Shown one piece after another: positions 11,428 to 36,490 of a stretch of 37,506 nucleotides of DNA (positions are counted from its first letter, which is position 1; each line of letters opens with the position of its first letter). The notes below the pieces were generated by a model. It was given only the letters and a program-made list of their open reading frames with translations. It was not told where the DNA came from and did no database searches. The position numbers and the translations under genes are program-made. This DNA comes from an uncultured Saprospiraceae bacterium (GTDB lineage: Bacteria; Bacteroidota; Bacteroidia; Chitinophagales; Saprospiraceae), in contig CALJIQ010000248.1 in assembly GCA_937973995.1 (NCBI GenBank), positions 1 to 37,506 on the forward strand, in the 5' to 3' direction.

Positions 11428-11555
11428 GGGACAAAAATAAATGTTCCAATTTTTTGAGACTTTTCGTTAGCTTTCAAAAATAAACTCCTTGACATACGTT
11501 CATTTTTGAAAACTAACAAAAAGTCAATTGGAACATTTATTTTTTCAATGTCCCT
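11428..11555. repeat. Inverted-repeat element bounded by GGGACA/TGTCCC after ettA
   Basis: The left arm (11428-~11480) and right arm (~11501-11555) are reverse complements over about 45 positions with few mismatches: both contain AAATAAATGTTCCAATT, GACTTTT(C/T)GTTAG and TTTCAAAAAT, with a 6-bp insertion in the left arm. The ends read AGTGGGACA and TGTCCCTT. It starts four bases after the ettA stop codon. It may be a strong terminator hairpin or a MITE; a short element with the same ends lies at 24134-24165. Confidence 0.7.
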
Positions 11556-11556
11556 T

Positions 11557-11653
11557 AGAATTTCAAATTCCAAGCACCAAATTCCAAAAACCAGCATTCA
11601 AGGCTATACTGTATGCTAGTAGTTTGGAATTTGATTTTTGGAATTTGAATGTC
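11557..11653. repeat. TTCCAAAT-type short repeats in inverted pair
   Basis: CAAATTCCAA, CAAATTCCAAA and CATTCAAGG on the left are mirrored by TTTGGAATTT, TTTTTGGAATTT and GAATG on the right, giving a hairpin with a ~40-base centre. The unit size is about 8-10 bp and degenerate, in the same style as the other intergenic arrays here. Confidence 0.55.
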
Positions 11654-12579: not shown

Positions 12580-14799
12580 ATGAGTTGTTTTTTAATACAG
12601 GCCTTATGGGCATTAGGAGCTTCCTTACTAGGTGGATTAATTGGTTGGATTTGGAGAGGCCAAAAAGAGGTAGATGAATATACGATTAAAAACTCTTCTT
12701 TCTATAAGCAATTGGAAGGAAATTATCAGGGTACTTTAACCAAGCACCAATCCTTAGAACAGGAACATTCTCAATTAGATATAAACTATAAAAAGTTATT
12801 AGCAAAACGAGAACAAGCGGCTAGTGCGCCTGTCCATTTAGTTGGTGGCGGTGCTACGGAAACGGTGATAAAAGAAGTAGAAAAAATCGTAGAAGTTCCA
12901 GTAGAAGTAATAAAAGAGGTAGAAAAACTAGTGGAGGTAATAAAGGAAGTAGAGGTGATAAGAGAAGTAGAAAAACCTGTGGAGGTAATCAAAGAGGTTC
13001 AGAATTTTGTAGAAATCGAAAAGTTAGTGGAGAAACCAATTGAGGTAATTAGAGAAGTAGAGAAAATTGTAGAAGTCCCTGTTGAAATTATCAAAGAGGT
13101 AGAAAGAATAGTAGAGATTGAAAAACCTGTGGAAGTGATAAAGGAAGTGGAGGTGATACGAGAAGTGGAAAAGAGAGTGGAAGTACCTGTGGAAGTGATA
13201 AAGGAAGTCGAAGTAATAAAAGAAGTACCCGTAGAGGTGATAAAAGAAGTGGAAATAATTAGAGAGGTAGAGAAACGTGTAGAAGTACCAGTGGAGGTGA
13301 TCAAAGAAGTAGAAAAGATCGTAGAGGTGCCGGTAGAGATCATTAAAGAATCGATTAGAGAAGTGCCAGTAGAGGTGATACGAGAAGTGGAAAAGAGAAT
13401 TGAAGTACCCGTGGAGGTAATCAGAGAAGTAGAGGTGATAAAAGAAGTGGAGGTGATACGGGAAGTCCCTAGAAATGTATTCAATGAAATAGAAGTAGTG
13501 AAAGAGGTAGAAAGGATCGTGGAAGTACCAGTAGAAGTGATTAAAGAGGTGGAAGTAATAAAAGAAATTCCTGTAGAGATAATTAAAGAAGTGGAGAAAA
13601 GAGTAGAAGTACCCGTGGAGAAGATAAAGGAGGTAGAAATAATCAGAGAAGTAGAAAAGCCGATAGAGATCATCAAAGAGATAGAGGTCATTAAAGAAAT
13701 TCCTGTGGAGGTGATTAAAGAGGTAGTAGTAGAGAAAATAGTAGAGGTACCAGTCGAGAAGATCAAGGAAGTGGAAGTGGTAAAAGAAATCATCAAGGTG
13801 GTGGAGAAGCCAGTAGAGATCATCAAAGAGATAGAGGTCATTAAGGAAATTCCTGTGGAGGTGATTAAAGAAGTAGAAGTAGAAAAAATAGTAGTGGTAG
13901 AAAAAATAATTGAACGGCCGATTGAAGTAATCAAGGAAGTAGAGAAAATCGTGGAAGTGCCAGTTGAAGTAATCAAAGAAATTGAGATTGAAAAAATCAT
14001 CGAACAACCTATTGAGATTATCAAAGAGGTGCTAGTTGAAAAGGTAGTTGAAGTACCGACCCCTATTGCAAAGGAGATTCTTACCGTGGTCGAGGAAACC
14101 ATCTCTGAGAATGGACATGCGGAAATATCAGATTTACCGGTAGCGGAATATGGTTTTGCTTCCTTATCGTATGATATTTTTGCGGATGCATCGACTAGTT
14201 CGATTGATATGGTGAACCCTGACAAAGAAGGGGAAATTGGTGGCGGAAAGTATTATTATTGGAAAGGATCAGATGATCTTTTTTATTTTTCTATTGCTGA
14301 TGGAGATGGAAAGATTCTAATATTTAGTGATGGATTCTCCAATCAACGAATCCGTAAGAATGCGCTTAGCTATATCCAATCTTTATTATATCGCTTAGAA
14401 AATTATCGCCCATATACCCAACCAGAGGGTGGATACTATTTCCATTTTTATGGCAGTGATGGGGAGATATATGGAAGTAGTCCTACCTACGCTTCTCAAG
14501 ATGCCTTGGACAATTCTATTAATTACTTGATTGTCAATAATCCTCGGAAGGATGATCTCAAATTAATTGAAGGAATCGGACCTAAGATAGAATCGCTGCT
14601 CTATGAAGCGGGTATTATCACTTGGGAAAGTTTGGCAAAGGCGTCGATAGAAACTCTACGAGCTATTTTAGATAATGCTGGTTCTCGCTATCGCATGCAC
14701 AATCCTTCTACTTGGCCAGCCCAAGCAGATTTAGCGAATCAAGGGAAGTGGAAAGAATTGAAGGATTGGCAAGAGGAACTGCATGGTGGGAAAGCCTAG
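12580..14799 (+). CDS. Membrane-anchored protein with ~400-residue V-E-V-I-K repeats, YegP-like domains and a helix-hairpin-helix end
   Basis: The 739-residue protein has an N-terminal membrane segment (about residues 5-26, ending in WIWRGQKE) and a short helical stretch. Residues ~96-494 are a degenerate repeat of 7 or 14 residues (units like VEVPVEVIKEVEKI and VEVIREVEKR), an alternating hydrophobic/acidic pattern with periodic K/R. Two modules resembling DUF1508/YegP repeats follow (~550-655; YFSIADGDGKILIFSDGF and YFHFYGSDGEIYGSS). Last comes an HhH-like domain (LIEGIGPKIESLLYEAGI, ~662-705). The repeat part may form an extended stalk or coiled rod that displays the C-terminal domains. 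The preceding OmpA-family gene supports an envelope role. Exact function is unknown. Long minus-strand frames across the repeat are artefacts of its codon pattern. Confidence 0.82.
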   Translation: MSCFLIQALWALGASLLGGLIGWIWRGQKEVDEYTIKNSSFYKQLEGNYQGTLTKHQSLEQEHSQLDINYKKLLAKREQAASAPVHLVGGGATETVIKEVEKIVEVPVEVIKEVEKLVEVIKEVEVIREVEKPVEVIKEVQNFVEIEKLVEKPIEVIREVEKIVEVPVEIIKEVERIVEIEKPVEVIKEVEVIREVEKRVEVPVEVIKEVEVIKEVPVEVIKEVEIIREVEKRVEVPVEVIKEVEKIVEVPVEIIKESIREVPVEVIREVEKRIEVPVEVIREVEVIKEVEVIREVPRNVFNEIEVVKEVERIVEVPVEVIKEVEVIKEIPVEIIKEVEKRVEVPVEKIKEVEIIREVEKPIEIIKEIEVIKEIPVEVIKEVVVEKIVEVPVEKIKEVEVVKEIIKVVEKPVEIIKEIEVIKEIPVEVIKEVEVEKIVVVEKIIERPIEVIKEVEKIVEVPVEVIKEIEIEKIIEQPIEIIKEVLVEKVVEVPTPIAKEILTVVEETISENGHAEISDLPVAEYGFASLSYDIFADASTSSIDMVNPDKEGEIGGGKYYYWKGSDDLFYFSIADGDGKILIFSDGFSNQRIRKNALSYIQSLLYRLENYRPYTQPEGGYYFHFYGSDGEIYGSSPTYASQDALDNSINYLIVNNPRKDDLKLIEGIGPKIESLLYEAGIITWESLAKASIETLRAILDNAGSRYRMHNPSTWPAQADLANQGKWKELKDWQEELHGGKA

Positions 14800-17271: not shown

Positions 17272-17390
17272 TGTTAGTTATTTAAATCATTATACTTTTA
17301 AATGGAAGTGCGTCATCGCATAAGCAAAAATAATGATTAGAATGCGAAATCCATTATTCTTAATGTTTTCGTAACGTTTGAACGGGTTGG

Positions 17391-17445
17391 CGTTGTGGCT
17401 TTGTGGCATTTTGGCTTTATGGCATTTTGGCTTTGTGGCATTTTT
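17391..17445. repeat. Octamer array (NNTTNTGG = complement of CCANAANN)
   Basis: Six consecutive 8-bp units, CGTTGTGG, CTTTGTGG, CATTTTGG, CTTTATGG, CATTTTGG, CTTTGTGG (17391-17438), then a decayed copy. Read on the minus strand they belong to the CCACAACA/CCATAATG family found at 17766-17824 and 36403-36490. Confidence 0.8.
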
Positions 17446-17538
17446 GGCTACACTCAATTCTGCTGTTCAACCAGCGTCTCTTTTTCGATGTGAATAATTA
17501 TCATAAATGCCAAAGTAAAACTTGATAGCTCATTTAGT

Positions 17539-17661
17539 AGGATTGGAACACGGATAAGACGGATCGAACGGATTTATGTAAGTCGTGTACTAGATGTGTT
17601 TATGACCTGTAAGAAATCCGTTCAGATCCTGTCAAATCCGTTCGATCCGTATTCCAATCCT
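17539..17661. repeat. Inverted repeat of ACGGATCG-type units
   Basis: AGGATTGGAACACGGAT (17539-17555) matches the complement of ATCCGTATTCCAATCCT (17645-17661) with one mismatch. CGAACGGATTT (17565-17575) pairs perfectly with AAATCCGTTCG (17634-17644), and AAATCCGTTC is repeated at 17614. The element is ~123 bp with no coding capacity. Confidence 0.65.
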
Positions 17662-17765
17662 ATCCAGCTATGAAAAAACATACTATCAGCATTAATAAAA
17701 AACCCCTACTGAAGTCAAATTTTGTCAAATGCAAAAATTTTGTCGATTTTTGACCACTCAAAAGC

Positions 17766-17824
17766 CACAAAACCATAATGCCACAACACCATAACACCAC
17801 CATATTACCACAACACCAACCCTC
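17766..17824. repeat. CCANAANN octamer array ending at the nif3-like start codon
   Basis: Units CCACAAAA, CCATAATG, CCACAACA, CCATAACA, a partial CCA, CCATATTA, CCACAACA and CCAACCTC run from 17766 to 17824, and the ATG of the Nif3-like gene begins at 17825. The array is therefore the immediate 5' leader, with no Shine-Dalgarno sequence. Confidence 0.8.
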
Positions 17825-19797: not shown

Positions 19798-19815
19798 ATA
19801 TTACAGTCCTTAGTT

Positions 19816-19883
19816 ATTGGTCATTGGTCATTAGTATAACTCACTACTGACCAATGACTACTGACTACTGACCAATGACCAAT
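19816..19883. repeat. Inverted heptamer array (GGTCATT / GACCAAT) before glnS
   Basis: ATTGGTCATTGGTC (19816-19829) is a perfect inverted copy of GACCAATGACCAAT (19870-19883), with further GACTACT and GACCAAT heptamers between. The right arm ends four bases before the glnS ATG (19888), so it forms the 5' leader. The same heptamers flank the four-helix-bundle gene at 28585-28956. Confidence 0.8.
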
Positions 19884-27345: not shown

Positions 27346-27636
27346 TTATAAATCTATAACTTTCGCTATTTTAAAATATTGTTCGTTGCGTTCTGGGGCA
27401 TTCGCCAATGCCGCTTCTCGATTTACTTGATTTTTTACCTCATCTTCCCGTAGCACATTTACTTCTTCGGAAATATACACCAAAGGCGCCACTTTTGATA
27501 AATCTAGCTCTTGTAATTTTTCTACCATTCCCAAAATCTTATTGAGGTCTTCCTGTATCTTAACTCTTTCTGCTGTTGATAATTGTAAACGAGCTAACTT
27601 TTCTAGTTTTAAAATTAAGTCTTTATCTATCTGCAT
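27346..27636 (-). CDS. gatC: Aspartyl/glutamyl-tRNA amidotransferase subunit C
   Basis: The 96-residue protein has the whole GatC pattern: an N-terminal helical part (LILKLEKLARLQLSTAERVK), a central EDLNKILGMVEKLQELDLS, the conserved turn LVYISEEVNVLREDEV and a C-terminal NAPERNEQYFKIAKVI. GatC tethers GatA and GatB, which convert misacylated Asp-tRNA-Asn or Glu-tRNA-Gln. GlnS is also encoded here, so at least for glutamine the direct route exists and GatCAB may serve mainly asparagine; this depends on whether AsnRS is present. gatA and gatB are not in the window. Confidence 0.93.
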   Translation of the reverse strand: MQIDKDLILKLEKLARLQLSTAERVKIQEDLNKILGMVEKLQELDLSKVAPLVYISEEVNVLREDEVKNQVNREAALANAPERNEQYFKIAKVIDL

Positions 27637-27694
27637 GATAATATTTTAGATGATGGGTAGCTTATGCGGGATGAAATGCGGTTTTCTATTGGTT

Positions 27695-27798
27695 CATTGT
27701 TCCATTGATCCATTGTCTCATTGATCCATTGTCTCATTGATCCATTGTCTCATTGATCCATTGTCTCATTGATCCATTGTCTCATTGTTCTATTGTCA
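27695..27798. repeat. 13-unit octamer array (CATTGATC / CATTGTCT)
   Basis: Thirteen contiguous 8-bp units alternate mainly CATTGATC and CATTGTCT, with CATTGTTC and TATTGTCA at the edges. The phase is kept exactly for 104 bp. Confidence 0.93.
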
Positions 27799-27815
27799 AT
27801 AGTAGGACAAAATTA

Positions 27816-27887
27816 CTGATCAGATGAACTTAAAGTCATCAGATCAGACGTTATCATTCAATCTGATCACTCAAAGTGATCTGATTG
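27816..27887. repeat. Twin TGATCAGAT palindromes between the arrays
   Basis: CTGATCAGATGA (27816-27827) pairs with TCATCAGATCAG (27836-27847), and CAATCTGATCACT (27859-27871) with AGTGATCTGATTG (27875-27887), each with one mismatch. All four arms are variants of one TGATCAGAT motif. They could be binding sites or hairpins. Confidence 0.7.
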
Positions 27888-27917
27888 ATTGTTTCATTTT
27901 TATGCCCAAAAACTTTT

Positions 27918-28044
27918 CATTGATTCATTGTCTCATTGAGCTTAGTATCAATGGGACAATGGGACAATGGGACAATGGGACAATGGGACAATGGGACAAT
28001 GGGACAATAGGACAATAGAACAATAGAACAGTGAAACAATAGAA
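27918..28044. repeat. Inverted octamer array (CATTGTCT x3, then CAATGGGA x12)
   Basis: Three CATTG units (27918-27941) are followed by a 7-base break and then twelve contiguous units from 27949 to 28044. Seven of these read CAATGGGA, then CAATAGGA, CAATAGAA and CAGTGAAA variants. They are the reverse complement family of the left array. The last unit ends four bases before the asparaginase stop codon. Confidence 0.93.
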
Positions 28045-28048
28045 CCAT

Positions 28049-28540
28049 TTAATCCAATTCCTCAAAAAAGCCAGTTTCTCGATTTTTTCGGACATTGTCC
28101 CACTTAAAAAAGCGACCGTTCATAGCAACGAATACGCCCGAGGGTAACGCTTGTGCAAAGGCTATGGCACTTCCCAAATTAAAAAAACCATCGGAAGAAT
28201 CGCCAAAGGCATAGGGAATCATGGCGCCCATTAGGATGATGGTTTTGCCTTTTATTTGTTCTTTCGCTAGATATTTAGCGGTATCTACCATGGTATCGGT
28301 ACCATGTGTGATGACAATTTCCTTTGCTTTGGTGCGTCGGCAATTATGGGCGATGATTTCTCGATCCGCTTTCGTCATCTCCAGACTATCGATCATCATT
28401 AAGGTCTTAATATCTATATCTGCCGTACACCGACCTCGTGCAAACATTTCCTTCAAATGGGTATCCTTGAAAAATAATTTACCTGTAATGAAGTCATATT
28501 CTTTGTCGAAGGTACCTCCTGTTACGAAAACTTGAATCAT
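28049..28540 (-). CDS. Asparaginase-like protein, N-terminal domain only
   Basis: With ATG at 28540 the protein is 163 residues, covering only the first domain of type I/II asparaginases. Both catalytic threonines are present: TGGTFD near the start (residues ~7-12) and HGTDTM (~86-91), plus KGKTIILMGAMIP, the conserved strand of the family. The C-terminal half that completes the dimer in canonical L-asparaginases is absent, and the chain ends GFFEELD. Short stand-alone versions are known in other bacteria; it might deamidate asparagine or a different amide. The upstream six codons in frame (MTNDQS) are translated repeat sequence, so they are left out. It lies between two repeat arrays. Confidence 0.82.
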   Translation of the reverse strand: MIQVFVTGGTFDKEYDFITGKLFFKDTHLKEMFARGRCTADIDIKTLMMIDSLEMTKADREIIAHNCRRTKAKEIVITHGTDTMVDTAKYLAKEQIKGKTIILMGAMIPYAFGDSSDGFFNLGSAIAFAQALPSGVFVAMNGRFFKWDNVRKNRETGFFEELD

Positions 28541-28577
28541 GGATTGGTCATTAGTCATTCAGTCATTGGTCATTGGT
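28541..28577. repeat. Heptamer array (GGTCATT) between asparaginase and S23-type genes
   Basis: ATTGGTCATTAGTCATT (28543-28559) is followed by CAGTCATTGGTCATTGG. The first 17 bases are a perfect inverted copy of 29019-29035 on the other side of the S23-type gene. The asparaginase ATG directly adjoins the array. Confidence 0.85.
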
Positions 28578-28584
28578 AAAGCTG

Positions 28585-28956
28585 TCAACTATTATTAGAT
28601 GGTCCAATGGTACTGATGTAGGCGTTTAGCATTTTTAGTAGGATGTTTAACTCCTTTTTTAAAAATTCATACCTTTCATCGGATACTAAATTTCTATTAT
28701 TGGCTTTTTCAAGCCATGTTTGAGTTTCAGTCAGTGACCCTCTGCTGTAATAACAAAATTTTTTGTTCTCTTTGAAATGAAATCTTCCATATCCTTCAGA
28801 GATATTTGCTGCAATGGAATCTGCACTTCTAACCCACTGTTTTCCGAGTGTATCCCTCTCATAATATTGCCATTCTGAAACAATTTTCCATATCCACTCT
28901 CCAATTTTCATAGCTTTTCCATACACCTTTAATTCATTTAATTTTAAAGATTGCAT
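28585..28956 (-). CDS. Four-helix-bundle protein (23S rRNA-intervening-sequence / S23 family)
   Basis: Taking ATG at 28956 gives 123 residues starting MQSLKLNELKVYGKAM. The family signature is clear: WVRSADSIAANISEGYGRFH, FCYYSRGSLTETQTWLEKA, and a last helix ending LLKMLNAYIS. These proteins (TIGR02436) were named for genes inside 23S rRNA intervening sequences, but most copies, like this one, stand alone. They share a fold with the Avd accessory proteins of diversity-generating retroelements and other retron-associated bundles. No reverse transcriptase or variable repeat is present in the window. The gene is enclosed by inverted heptamer arrays, suggesting that it moved as a unit. An in-frame extension upstream (to 29034) translates the array and is rejected. 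Confidence 0.88.
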   Translation of the reverse strand: MQSLKLNELKVYGKAMKIGEWIWKIVSEWQYYERDTLGKQWVRSADSIAANISEGYGRFHFKENKKFCYYSRGSLTETQTWLEKANNRNLVSDERYEFLKKELNILLKMLNAYISTIGPSNNS

Positions 28957-28980
28957 GATGTGTTTAGTTTTGTTAATTAT

Positions 28981-29040
28981 TGACCATTGAGTCATATAAA
29001 CATCTAAACTAATGACAAAATGACTAATGACCAATGACTA
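28981..29040. repeat. Heptamer array (AATGACC/GACTAAT) overlapping the dapD stop codon
   Basis: AATGACTAATGACCAAT (29019-29035) plus GACTAA and TGACCATTGAGTCAT form the array. The dapD stop (TAG on the minus strand, 29040-29038) is itself part of the terminal heptamer. The 17-bp core is an inverted copy of 28543-28559. Confidence 0.85.
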
Positions 29041-30198
29041 ACTTTTATGCAAACTAGCATTCAACTCAATCACTTTTTGATTGGGGCGACAAGTGATTTT
29101 ACCCGTTTGCGAATCTTGTATGATAAGTAGGTGATCTTTACCATTTAAGGCAATGCCTTTTACCACATTTTCGCCCTCAGCTACTATCGTACCATCCAAA
29201 TCAACAGGTTGCTTGTCGTTGTTGTATAAGGATACTTTTGAGCCAGCAGTAATATATACCCCTGCTGCTACCGTACAGCCATCTCCTAAGGAGATTCCTG
29301 TGCCCGCATTCGCACCCAAGAGACATTGTTTGCCAATGGAGATAACATTTTTATTACCACCAGAAAGTGTTCCCATGATGGAGGCACCCCCTCCAATATC
29401 CGATTGATCATCAACGATAACTCCGGCAGAGATTCTTCCTTCTACCATCGCTTTGCCCAAAGTACCTGCATTGAAATTGATAAAACCAGCTGGCATGACC
29501 GTCGTTCCAGAACTTAAATGTGCGCCTAACCGAACTTTAGAACCTGCTACAATCCGAACACCTTGCGGTACATGGAAATTGACCATATATGGAAATTTAT
29601 CTACATGACTCACCACCAATTCTTGACCTTTAAAAGTAGCATTCAGGCGTTCCTCTGCTAAATCCTCTGGAAGAATTGGTCCTTTATTGGTCCAAGCGAT
29701 ATTATTCATTTTTCCAAAGATTCCAGCAACGCCAATCTCATGTGGCTTCACATGTAATTGAGATAAACACTGGGTCTTAAAATACCCTTCTTCTGGATTG
29801 GCTACGGGGGTATCCTTATCAAATAGGAAATAGGCGATAAGGTCTAGCGAAGCATAGCCTTTGGGATATTTATACTGCGTTAATAGTTGATGGATGAGTT
29901 TAATATTGGGATGTTGATCTATCTCCTCATGGAAGGCTGCAAACTTGTCAAAAGCAATTTGTAAATGTCCCTTATTAATAACAGTAAAACCATTTTCAGT
30001 ACTGCTATATCCTGTTATATCTTGTAAAAGTGCTGCAGTACCGTAGGCTGTTTCAAAATTAATGAGCGGAAAGAAAACCTCTAATGTTTTGTCTCCTTTA
30101 GTTTTGCGGATGCCTAATCCAAATGCGGTTGGTTTTTGGTAGCCCTCTCTATTTTGTACAGATGCTACGTAGTCTTTGAAGTCTTGTATGCTAGTCAT
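29038..30198 (-). CDS. dapD: Tetrahydrodipicolinate N-succinyltransferase (long-type DapD)
   Basis: With ATG at 30198 the protein is 386 residues. The N-terminal half contains the FGLGIRKTKGD and FPLINFETAYGTAALLQDIT segments of the longer DapD type. The C-terminal half is a left-handed beta-helix of hexapeptide repeats: VRIVAGSKVRLGAHLSSGTT, VEGRISAGVIVDDQSDIGGG, ISIGKQCLLGANAGTGISLG, and GCTVAAGVYITAGS. It transfers succinyl from succinyl-CoA to tetrahydrodipicolinate in lysine/meso-diaminopimelate synthesis, needed for the cell wall. A 20-residue upstream extension (to 30258) translates a TTGAATGA repeat and is rejected. The stop codon falls within a heptamer array. Confidence 0.92.
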   Translation of the reverse strand: MTSIQDFKDYVASVQNREGYQKPTAFGLGIRKTKGDKTLEVFFPLINFETAYGTAALLQDITGYSSTENGFTVINKGHLQIAFDKFAAFHEEIDQHPNIKLIHQLLTQYKYPKGYASLDLIAYFLFDKDTPVANPEEGYFKTQCLSQLHVKPHEIGVAGIFGKMNNIAWTNKGPILPEDLAEERLNATFKGQELVVSHVDKFPYMVNFHVPQGVRIVAGSKVRLGAHLSSGTTVMPAGFINFNAGTLGKAMVEGRISAGVIVDDQSDIGGGASIMGTLSGGNKNVISIGKQCLLGANAGTGISLGDGCTVAAGVYITAGSKVSLYNNDKQPVDLDGTIVAEGENVVKGIALNGKDHLLIIQDSQTGKITCRPNQKVIELNASLHKS

Positions 30199-30204
30199 TC
30201 TTTT

Positions 30205-30275
30205 AATTTTGAATGATTGAATTTTGAATGATTGAATGCCCGTACATTCAAAATTCAATCATTCCTCATTCAAAA
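30205..30275. repeat. Perfect 20-bp hairpin of TTGAATGA repeats between dapD and lpdA
   Basis: GAATGATTGAATTTTGAATG (30211-30230) pairs perfectly with 30245-30264 around a 14-base loop. Further octamer-like copies (ATTTTGAATGA, CATTCAAAATT) fill the gap. It begins directly after the lpdA stop codon and ends a few bases before the dapD ATG. Confidence 0.85.
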
Positions 30276-36310: not shown

Positions 36311-36321
36311 TTTGTGATCTT

Positions 36322-36353
<32 letters not shown>

Positions 36354-36402
36354 CTGACCGTCTTCTCAAAAATCTAAACCGATTTTTCAGATTCAAGAGA
36401 CG

Positions 36403-36490
36403 CCACAACACCACAACACCACAACACCACAACGCCACAACGCCACAACGCCACAACACCATAATGCCACAACACCATAACACCACAATG
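36403..36490. repeat. 11-unit CCACAACA octamer array that contains the start codon of the next gene
   Basis: Eleven contiguous 8-bp units: CCACAACA x3, CCACAACG x3, CCACAACA, CCATAATG, CCACAACA, CCATAACA, CCACAATG. The last three bases are the ATG used by the pseudouridine synthase; the eighth unit holds another in-frame ATG (36464-36466). Same family as the arrays at 17391-17445 (inverted) and 17766-17824. Confidence 0.93.

Follow-up and report, generated by a model that had tools for sequence, protein, structure and literature searches.

A Dispersed Foldback Element with Mirrored Octamer Arrays in a Saprospiraceae Genome and Its Probable Kinship with IVP-Carrying Elements

The Element and Its Flanking Genes

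The window, i.e., the whole stretch of 37,506 nucleotides that was analyzed, belongs to a draft genome (G000; 5.4 Mb, 562 contigs, about 95% complete) of an uncultured Saprospiraceae bacterium. A noncoding foldback element, with a full extent of approximately 27684–28048, sits there between two genes of the minus strand, an asparaginase-like gene upstream (28049–28558; conserved in congeners) and gatC downstream (27346–27636; Pfam GatC), the leader of which is conserved in congeners. The asparaginase-like protein, of 169 aa, comprises the N-terminal domain only; it is 74–80% identical across six congeners and is, therefore, a conserved stand-alone protein rather than the product of a truncated gene. 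An Rfam search of the window returned no rRNA or other match.

The left arm of the element (27687–27798, plus strand) consists of 14 octamers of the CATTGNNN family, in which CATTGATC and CATTGTCT alternate, five such pairs forming a higher-order unit of 16 bp. A first-pass annotation had rightly seen this array, although it counted 13 units, starting at 27695. The right arm (27949–28044, plus strand) contains 12 CAATRRRA octamers, as had been claimed, with seven copies of CAATGGGA followed by degenerate units grading to CAATAGAA, and its family is the reverse complement of that of the left arm. Tandem Repeats Finder (TRF) scores reach 178 for the left array and 131 for the right one, while 200 dinucleotide-shuffled versions of the region attained 52 at most, and the mirror score of the two arms is 98 in inverted and 7 in direct orientation. 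The complementarity announced earlier holds at the family level, but not for the unit variants (ATC/TCT on the left, GGGA on the right). Because the variants differ in this way, each arm has expanded separately. Slippage within each arm, one of the processes previously suggested, agrees with the homogeneous runs and with the 16-bp higher-order repeat, while there is no support for units having recently been inverted or copied across the palindrome, since the arms bear different variants. Three additional left-type octamers (27918–27941, plus strand), overlooked in the initial inventory, lie just before the right arm, with which they form a compact hairpin. The three arrays begin in different registers modulo 8, and the ‘exact phase’ once attributed to them has no meaning.

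The loop between the arms is occupied by a core of two hairpins, already recognized in the first reading, which are both real and are inverted relatives of each other, with one central mismatch apiece. Hairpin 1 (27816–27847) reads CTGATC-A-GATGA...TCATC-A-GATCAG, with a conserved A.A mismatch at its center, and hairpin 2 (27859–27887) reads CAATC-T-GATCACT...AGTGATC-T-GATTG, with a T.T mismatch. In hairpin 1, three pairs have undergone compensatory changes among 17 copies, with 10 double-sided changes; the covariation score of this hairpin, which kinship among the copies can inflate, was reached by none of 500 shuffles. Overall, 98% of the core cells are paired. Compensatory changes were also looked for in hairpin 2 among the core copies, and none was seen.

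The predicted RNA fold of the whole element has an energy of −149.2 kcal/mol, compared with −83.4 ± 4.8 kcal/mol for shuffled sequences (z −13.9), and the DNA fold prediction gives a z of −9.9. These predictions bear out the very long transcript stem envisaged earlier; according to them, a transcript of the window copy should form a long stem of the RNase III type.

The Neighboring IVP Element and Other Mirrored Pairs

Close to the asparaginase-like gene lies another element, which carries an IVP/S23 four-helix-bundle gene (28585–28995, minus strand; PF05635, E 1.8e-29; TIGR02436) in its loop. The longest open reading frame of this gene starts at 29034. One arm (28543–28587) is made of ATTGGTCATTAGTCATT... 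heptamers, and the opposite mirrored arm (29008–29041) of ACTAATGACAAAATGACTAATGACCAATG, with an inverted score of 41 vs. 6 for the direct one. Mirrored pairs recur in the window near 540–640, 11540–11650, 17388–17818, 19810–19883, and 30205–30265, in addition to this pair at 28543–29041.

Some of these regions have peculiarities of their own. At 17388–17818, mirrored TGGCTTTG/CCACAAAA arrays surround another long inverted repeat, GGATTGGAACACGGATAAGACGGATCG.../...CGATCCGTATTCCAATCC, giving a hairpin nested in a hairpin. At 36320–36488, two half-arrays, AGGAGTC and CCACAACA, adjoin each other with their mirrored partners absent, as might result from two elements having recombined. The degenerate tandem repeats of 18–48 bp at 12900–13986 are of another nature: they lie within an ORF of 739 aa that encodes a repeat protein and have no relation to the intergenic arrays.

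Dispersal in the Genome

A pattern of three octamer units has 575 matches in G000 and the reversed control none; none of eight congeners has more than one match to the pattern. When the element region served as a DNA query, more than 100 matching places were retrieved in G000, several of which combine arms and core, while many hold arms alone or the core alone. The octamer element is, thus, dispersed and lineage-specifically amplified, a trait that escapes the initial view of a local palindrome. The core itself has 15 good copies in G000 and only one weak match among 59 other genomes. It is also housed in other frames, e.g., in CACATTAG arrays (L059, L074), and CATTG frames can hold other palindromes (L038, L046); the loop cassette is a separate dispersed palindromic unit, distinct from the octamer frame. 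At L059, L068, and L071, the core is found without CATTG arms, in a short MITE-like element with terminal inverted repeats of about 13 bp (CTTGACAATGTTA...TAACATTGTCAAG). Other palindromic cargoes, TCGGATGG...CCATCCGA and AAAAAGCGTTTTTT...AAAACGCTTTTT, occur inside or beside CATTG frames at L038, L039, L046, and L069.

Array statistics were obtained from a 284-kb sample of G000 (contigs C1–C31). Mirroring is the norm there: of 108 intergenic arrays in this sample, 70 have an inverted copy at most 700 nt away and three a direct one. The periods of mirrored arrays in G000 are mostly 7, 8, and their multiples, and the units vary between elements (AATTTTG, AGTCAGG, TTATGGTG, TGTTTATT, CATTGTTC, and others). 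Many contigs end within mirrored arrays (C23, C107, C230, C361, C364, C479, and C526, among others), and the elements, therefore, break short-read assembly and are under-counted.

Taken with the layout described above, the window element is probably one copy of a dispersed noncoding foldback element, whose arms act as long terminal inverted repeats.

Turnover at Orthologous Sites

The gene order lpd-(dapD)-asn-gatC-ABC is kept in six congeners, but the contents of the gaps differ, so that a mirrored-array element is present or absent at the orthologous asn-gatC site. There, the window genome has CATTG arms with the core, other mirrored units are found in G001 (AAATGAG-type), G004 (AGTCAGA-type), and G006 (GTTGCGG-type), a remnant persists in G007, and the array is absent in G003 and G008. 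The gap in congeners is, in short, either small or taken up by another mirrored element. In the dapD-asn gap, the IVP element is found only in the window genome, and CACAGAG-type and CATAGGTA-type arrays in G003 and G008, respectively. The congeners compared are too diverged for a target duplication of the window element to be read.

IVP/S23 Genes between Mirrored Arrays

G000 has 11 IVP genes, nearly all located between mirrored arrays whose units differ by locus. At nine of the 11, the mirrored-array flanks score above the 95th percentile (p95) of a cross-locus control, and the same pattern around IVP genes recurs in further loci of the same family. One IVP gene, on contig C445 (L083), is enclosed by the CATTG octamer frame itself.

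A scan of one genome per species yielded 80 IVP loci, drawn from many phyla. At 51 of 79 loci, a raw count inflated by orthologous loci, the flanks score above the p95 of a cross-locus control matched for GC content; the figure for random positions within these loci is 0.6%. As one gene neighborhood is common to 26 loci, those with common flanking genes were merged into 43 independent clusters; 29 of these exceed p95 and 14 exceed p99, where about 2 and 0.4 would be expected. IVP genes are, thus, associated with mirrored arrays across phyla. The array period is 7 at 39 of the 51 loci and 8 at six of them.

The 26 loci in question (L192, L203, L211, L227, L241, and 21 others, at a position of about 1500) are mostly from Bacteroidota. 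In those that were read, genes of the 3-hydroxyacyl-CoA dehydrogenase and acetyl-CoA acetyltransferase types flank the IVP gene. This neighborhood represents either an ancient insertion or a hot spot.

G-rich 5′ arms are seen in 44 of 49 IVP frames, whereas those of the CATTG family are C-rich. Due to this opposite polarity, the CATTG family may be a lineage separate from the IVP frames, and a G-rich 5′ arm is ruled out as a universal signature. In a small sample, IVP copy number was likewise not supported as a predictor of array density, as 160 kb from four IVP-rich genera contained no mirrored array.

To our knowledge, no nuclease activity has been attributed to IVP. It matches two solved structures, 2gsc and 2rld, and has a weak match to Avd, a protein of diversity-generating retroelements; this resemblance suggests binding to nucleic acids or to a partner, rather than cutting. 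Membership in a defense system was considered and set aside, as PADLOC gave no match. Literature searches, largely restricted to sources outside subscription journals, retrieved no report joining IVP genes to mirrored arrays.

Insertion Sites and Loss of the IVP Gene

In finished cyanobacterial plasmids, most of the IVP genes read have a mirrored-array frame, and several of these elements lie within operons (cas6-cas4, cas10-cmr3, and nrdB-nrdA). Related plasmids without them allow the comparison of filled and empty sites. In Trichormus (L289), the filled site reads AAAAA[GTAAT]-element-[GTAAT]TAAC, vs. AAAAAGTAATTAAC for the empty site of Nostoc linckia (L294), with flanks that are 98% identical; GTAAT borders the insert at either end, and the empty site has a single copy of it. 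Similarly, Nostoc plasmid pNsp_a (L292) has GG[TTCTA]-element-[TTCTA]G, where pNsp_c (L285) has GGTTCTAGG. Clean 5-bp target duplications are, thus, seen at two sites, both for IVP members on cyanobacterial plasmids. Three more cyanobacterial plasmid sites were checked for target duplication, and their junctions were not clean. At the nrd site, a 4-bp repeat would fit, with lower sequence identity.

IVP-less forms also occupy IVP sites. The Nostoc element L298 has its left junction in common with L284 and a different loop, and L296 is an IVP-less mini-element at the Trichormus site. In Chryseobacterium, the full-length IVP locus is present in 26 of 78 species, and the others sampled retain either mirrored arms, whose units may or may not be the same, or a single arm with an IVP remnant. 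Together with the IVP-less forms at IVP sites, this establishes that loss of the IVP gene leaves the arrays behind.

Proposed Origin of the Window Element

The window copy possesses the two mutually matching mirrored arrays of 7–8-nt units that define the wider class. On balance, it is best read as an IVP-less member of this class, the complete members of which carry an IVP/S23 gene in the loop; the claim of a class is founded on the 43 clusters and the two clean duplications. In the proposed mechanism, the element would insert between genes, often inside operons, with a short target duplication. An insertion within an operon could be tolerated if its transcript makes a long stem accessible to RNase III cleavage, as with the intervening sequences of 23S rRNA. 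Units would be gained or lost by slippage, independently in each arm, and loss of the IVP gene would yield IVP-less mirrored arrays able to persist and spread. The window copy would then descend from an IVP element and have moved by the same route, its transcript would be processed by RNase III, and IVP might itself take part in mobility. A search of G000 found no transposase or reverse transcriptase tied to the element. Reverse transcription was dismissed as the mover, PF00078 being absent from G000.

Several other explanations were weighed. Replication slippage around a pre-existing palindrome might have produced both arrays locally, without any mobility. Slippage is at work in the homogeneous runs, the 16-bp higher-order unit, and the arm-specific variants, and the unrelated units found in the congener gaps would suit such local growth. 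Nevertheless, the same octamer family and core are found at dozens of unrelated sites of G000 and not in congeners, and slippage by itself gives no inverted partner, while inverted pairs far exceed direct ones; a purely local origin is, therefore, unlikely. It is quite unlikely, too, that the element is a palindrome of the REPIN/MITE type mobilized by a RAYT, a transposase of the Y1 HUH kind, in which case the octamer arrays would be carried along at hot spots of insertion. The core does resemble a REPIN: it pairs two inverted, imperfect hairpins, each mismatched at its center, and has some 15 or more copies, some of them outside CATTG frames. However, the four Y1 transposase genes of G000, which is about 95% complete, are bordered by other palindromes or by none that could be seen, and never by the core hairpin, and mirrored arrays are common without the core.

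A hairpin of the host, kept between the asparaginase-like gene and gatC for regulation or mRNA processing, would account for the very stable fold, the covarying core stem, and the position between genes of one operon. This becomes improbable in view of the congeners, in which the same gap lacks the element or contains unrelated units, and of the many unrelated genes beside which the element occurs in G000. An assembly artifact, with repeats collapsed or chimeric in the draft, was the refutation proposed in the first-pass annotation, and the number of contigs (562), many ending in these arrays, gives some reason to consider it. It is, nonetheless, scarcely credible for the element as such, which lies well within a 37.5-kb contig, with gene order conserved on both sides; nor does it explain the class, the same architecture being present in complete plasmids. 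The number of units at this locus may, however, be collapsed.

Comparison with Known Systems

The intervening sequence (IVS) of the Coxiella burnetii 23S rRNA combines a stem with an S23 ORF; RNase III cleaves it in vitro, and a mobile origin is suspected (PMC4990558). Like 23S rRNA IVSs, the window copy has complementary ends that are predicted to form a long stem (−149.2 kcal/mol, z −13.9), and the longer IVS forms have an S23/IVP ORF in the loop, as do the IVP members of the class. IVSs, however, reside within rRNA helices and have ordinary stems, whereas the window copy lies between protein genes and the arms of the present elements are tandem arrays of 7–8-nt units. The loop ORF is absent from the window copy, but present in the neighboring element (28585–28995) and in the CATTG frame of C445; unlike the longer IVS forms, the elements often lack IVP.

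Direct repeats of TAACTGA have been described in Beggiatoaceae, Cyanobacteria, and five Bacteroidetes; mobile elements were considered, the mechanism was not found, and four-helix-bundle proteins are unmentioned (MacGregor 2015; PMC4679880). These heptamers, known as STRRs, are similarly short, tandem, and intergenic, and have no known dispersal mechanism. In that description they are direct repeats, apart from a single inverted case in the genome mainly examined (PMC4679880), whereas the present elements form mirrored pairs framing an IVP gene or a palindrome; the window units are tandem and intergenic, but of 8 nt.

With REPINs (PMC3116915), the window core shares two inverted imperfect hairpins and many dispersed copies. 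The matching RAYT was not found in G000, and the outer octamer arms are foreign to REPINs.

The FB/NOF elements of Drosophila are eukaryotic foldback transposons, with long inverted termini of short tandem subrepeats, variable in length, and a loop that may or may not contain a gene. Inverted termini built from short tandem subrepeats and an optional loop gene are, thus, common to both systems. FB/NOF elements differ in being eukaryotic and in their transposase-type genes, with no homology to the present elements, where the loop gene is IVP.

Significance

Intergenic heptamer arrays have been known for decades in cyanobacteria and Bacteroidetes, with no mechanism for their spread, and IVP is a large protein family without a settled function. 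As a tentative generalization, mirrored heptamer and octamer arrays may be the terminal repeats of cross-phylum foldback mobile elements with IVP as their loop gene; IVP-less offspring, such as the window copy, might then make up much of the intergenic short-tandem-repeat DNA of Bacteroidota and Cyanobacteria, and the rRNA-borne members could be the intervening sequences of 23S rRNA. If arrays and IVP do belong together, both questions open themselves to testing: array pairs give the borders of the elements, and empty sites give the chemistry of insertion. IVP would then become a candidate mobility or RNA-handling factor, and the elements would represent a bacterial counterpart of eukaryotic foldback transposons.
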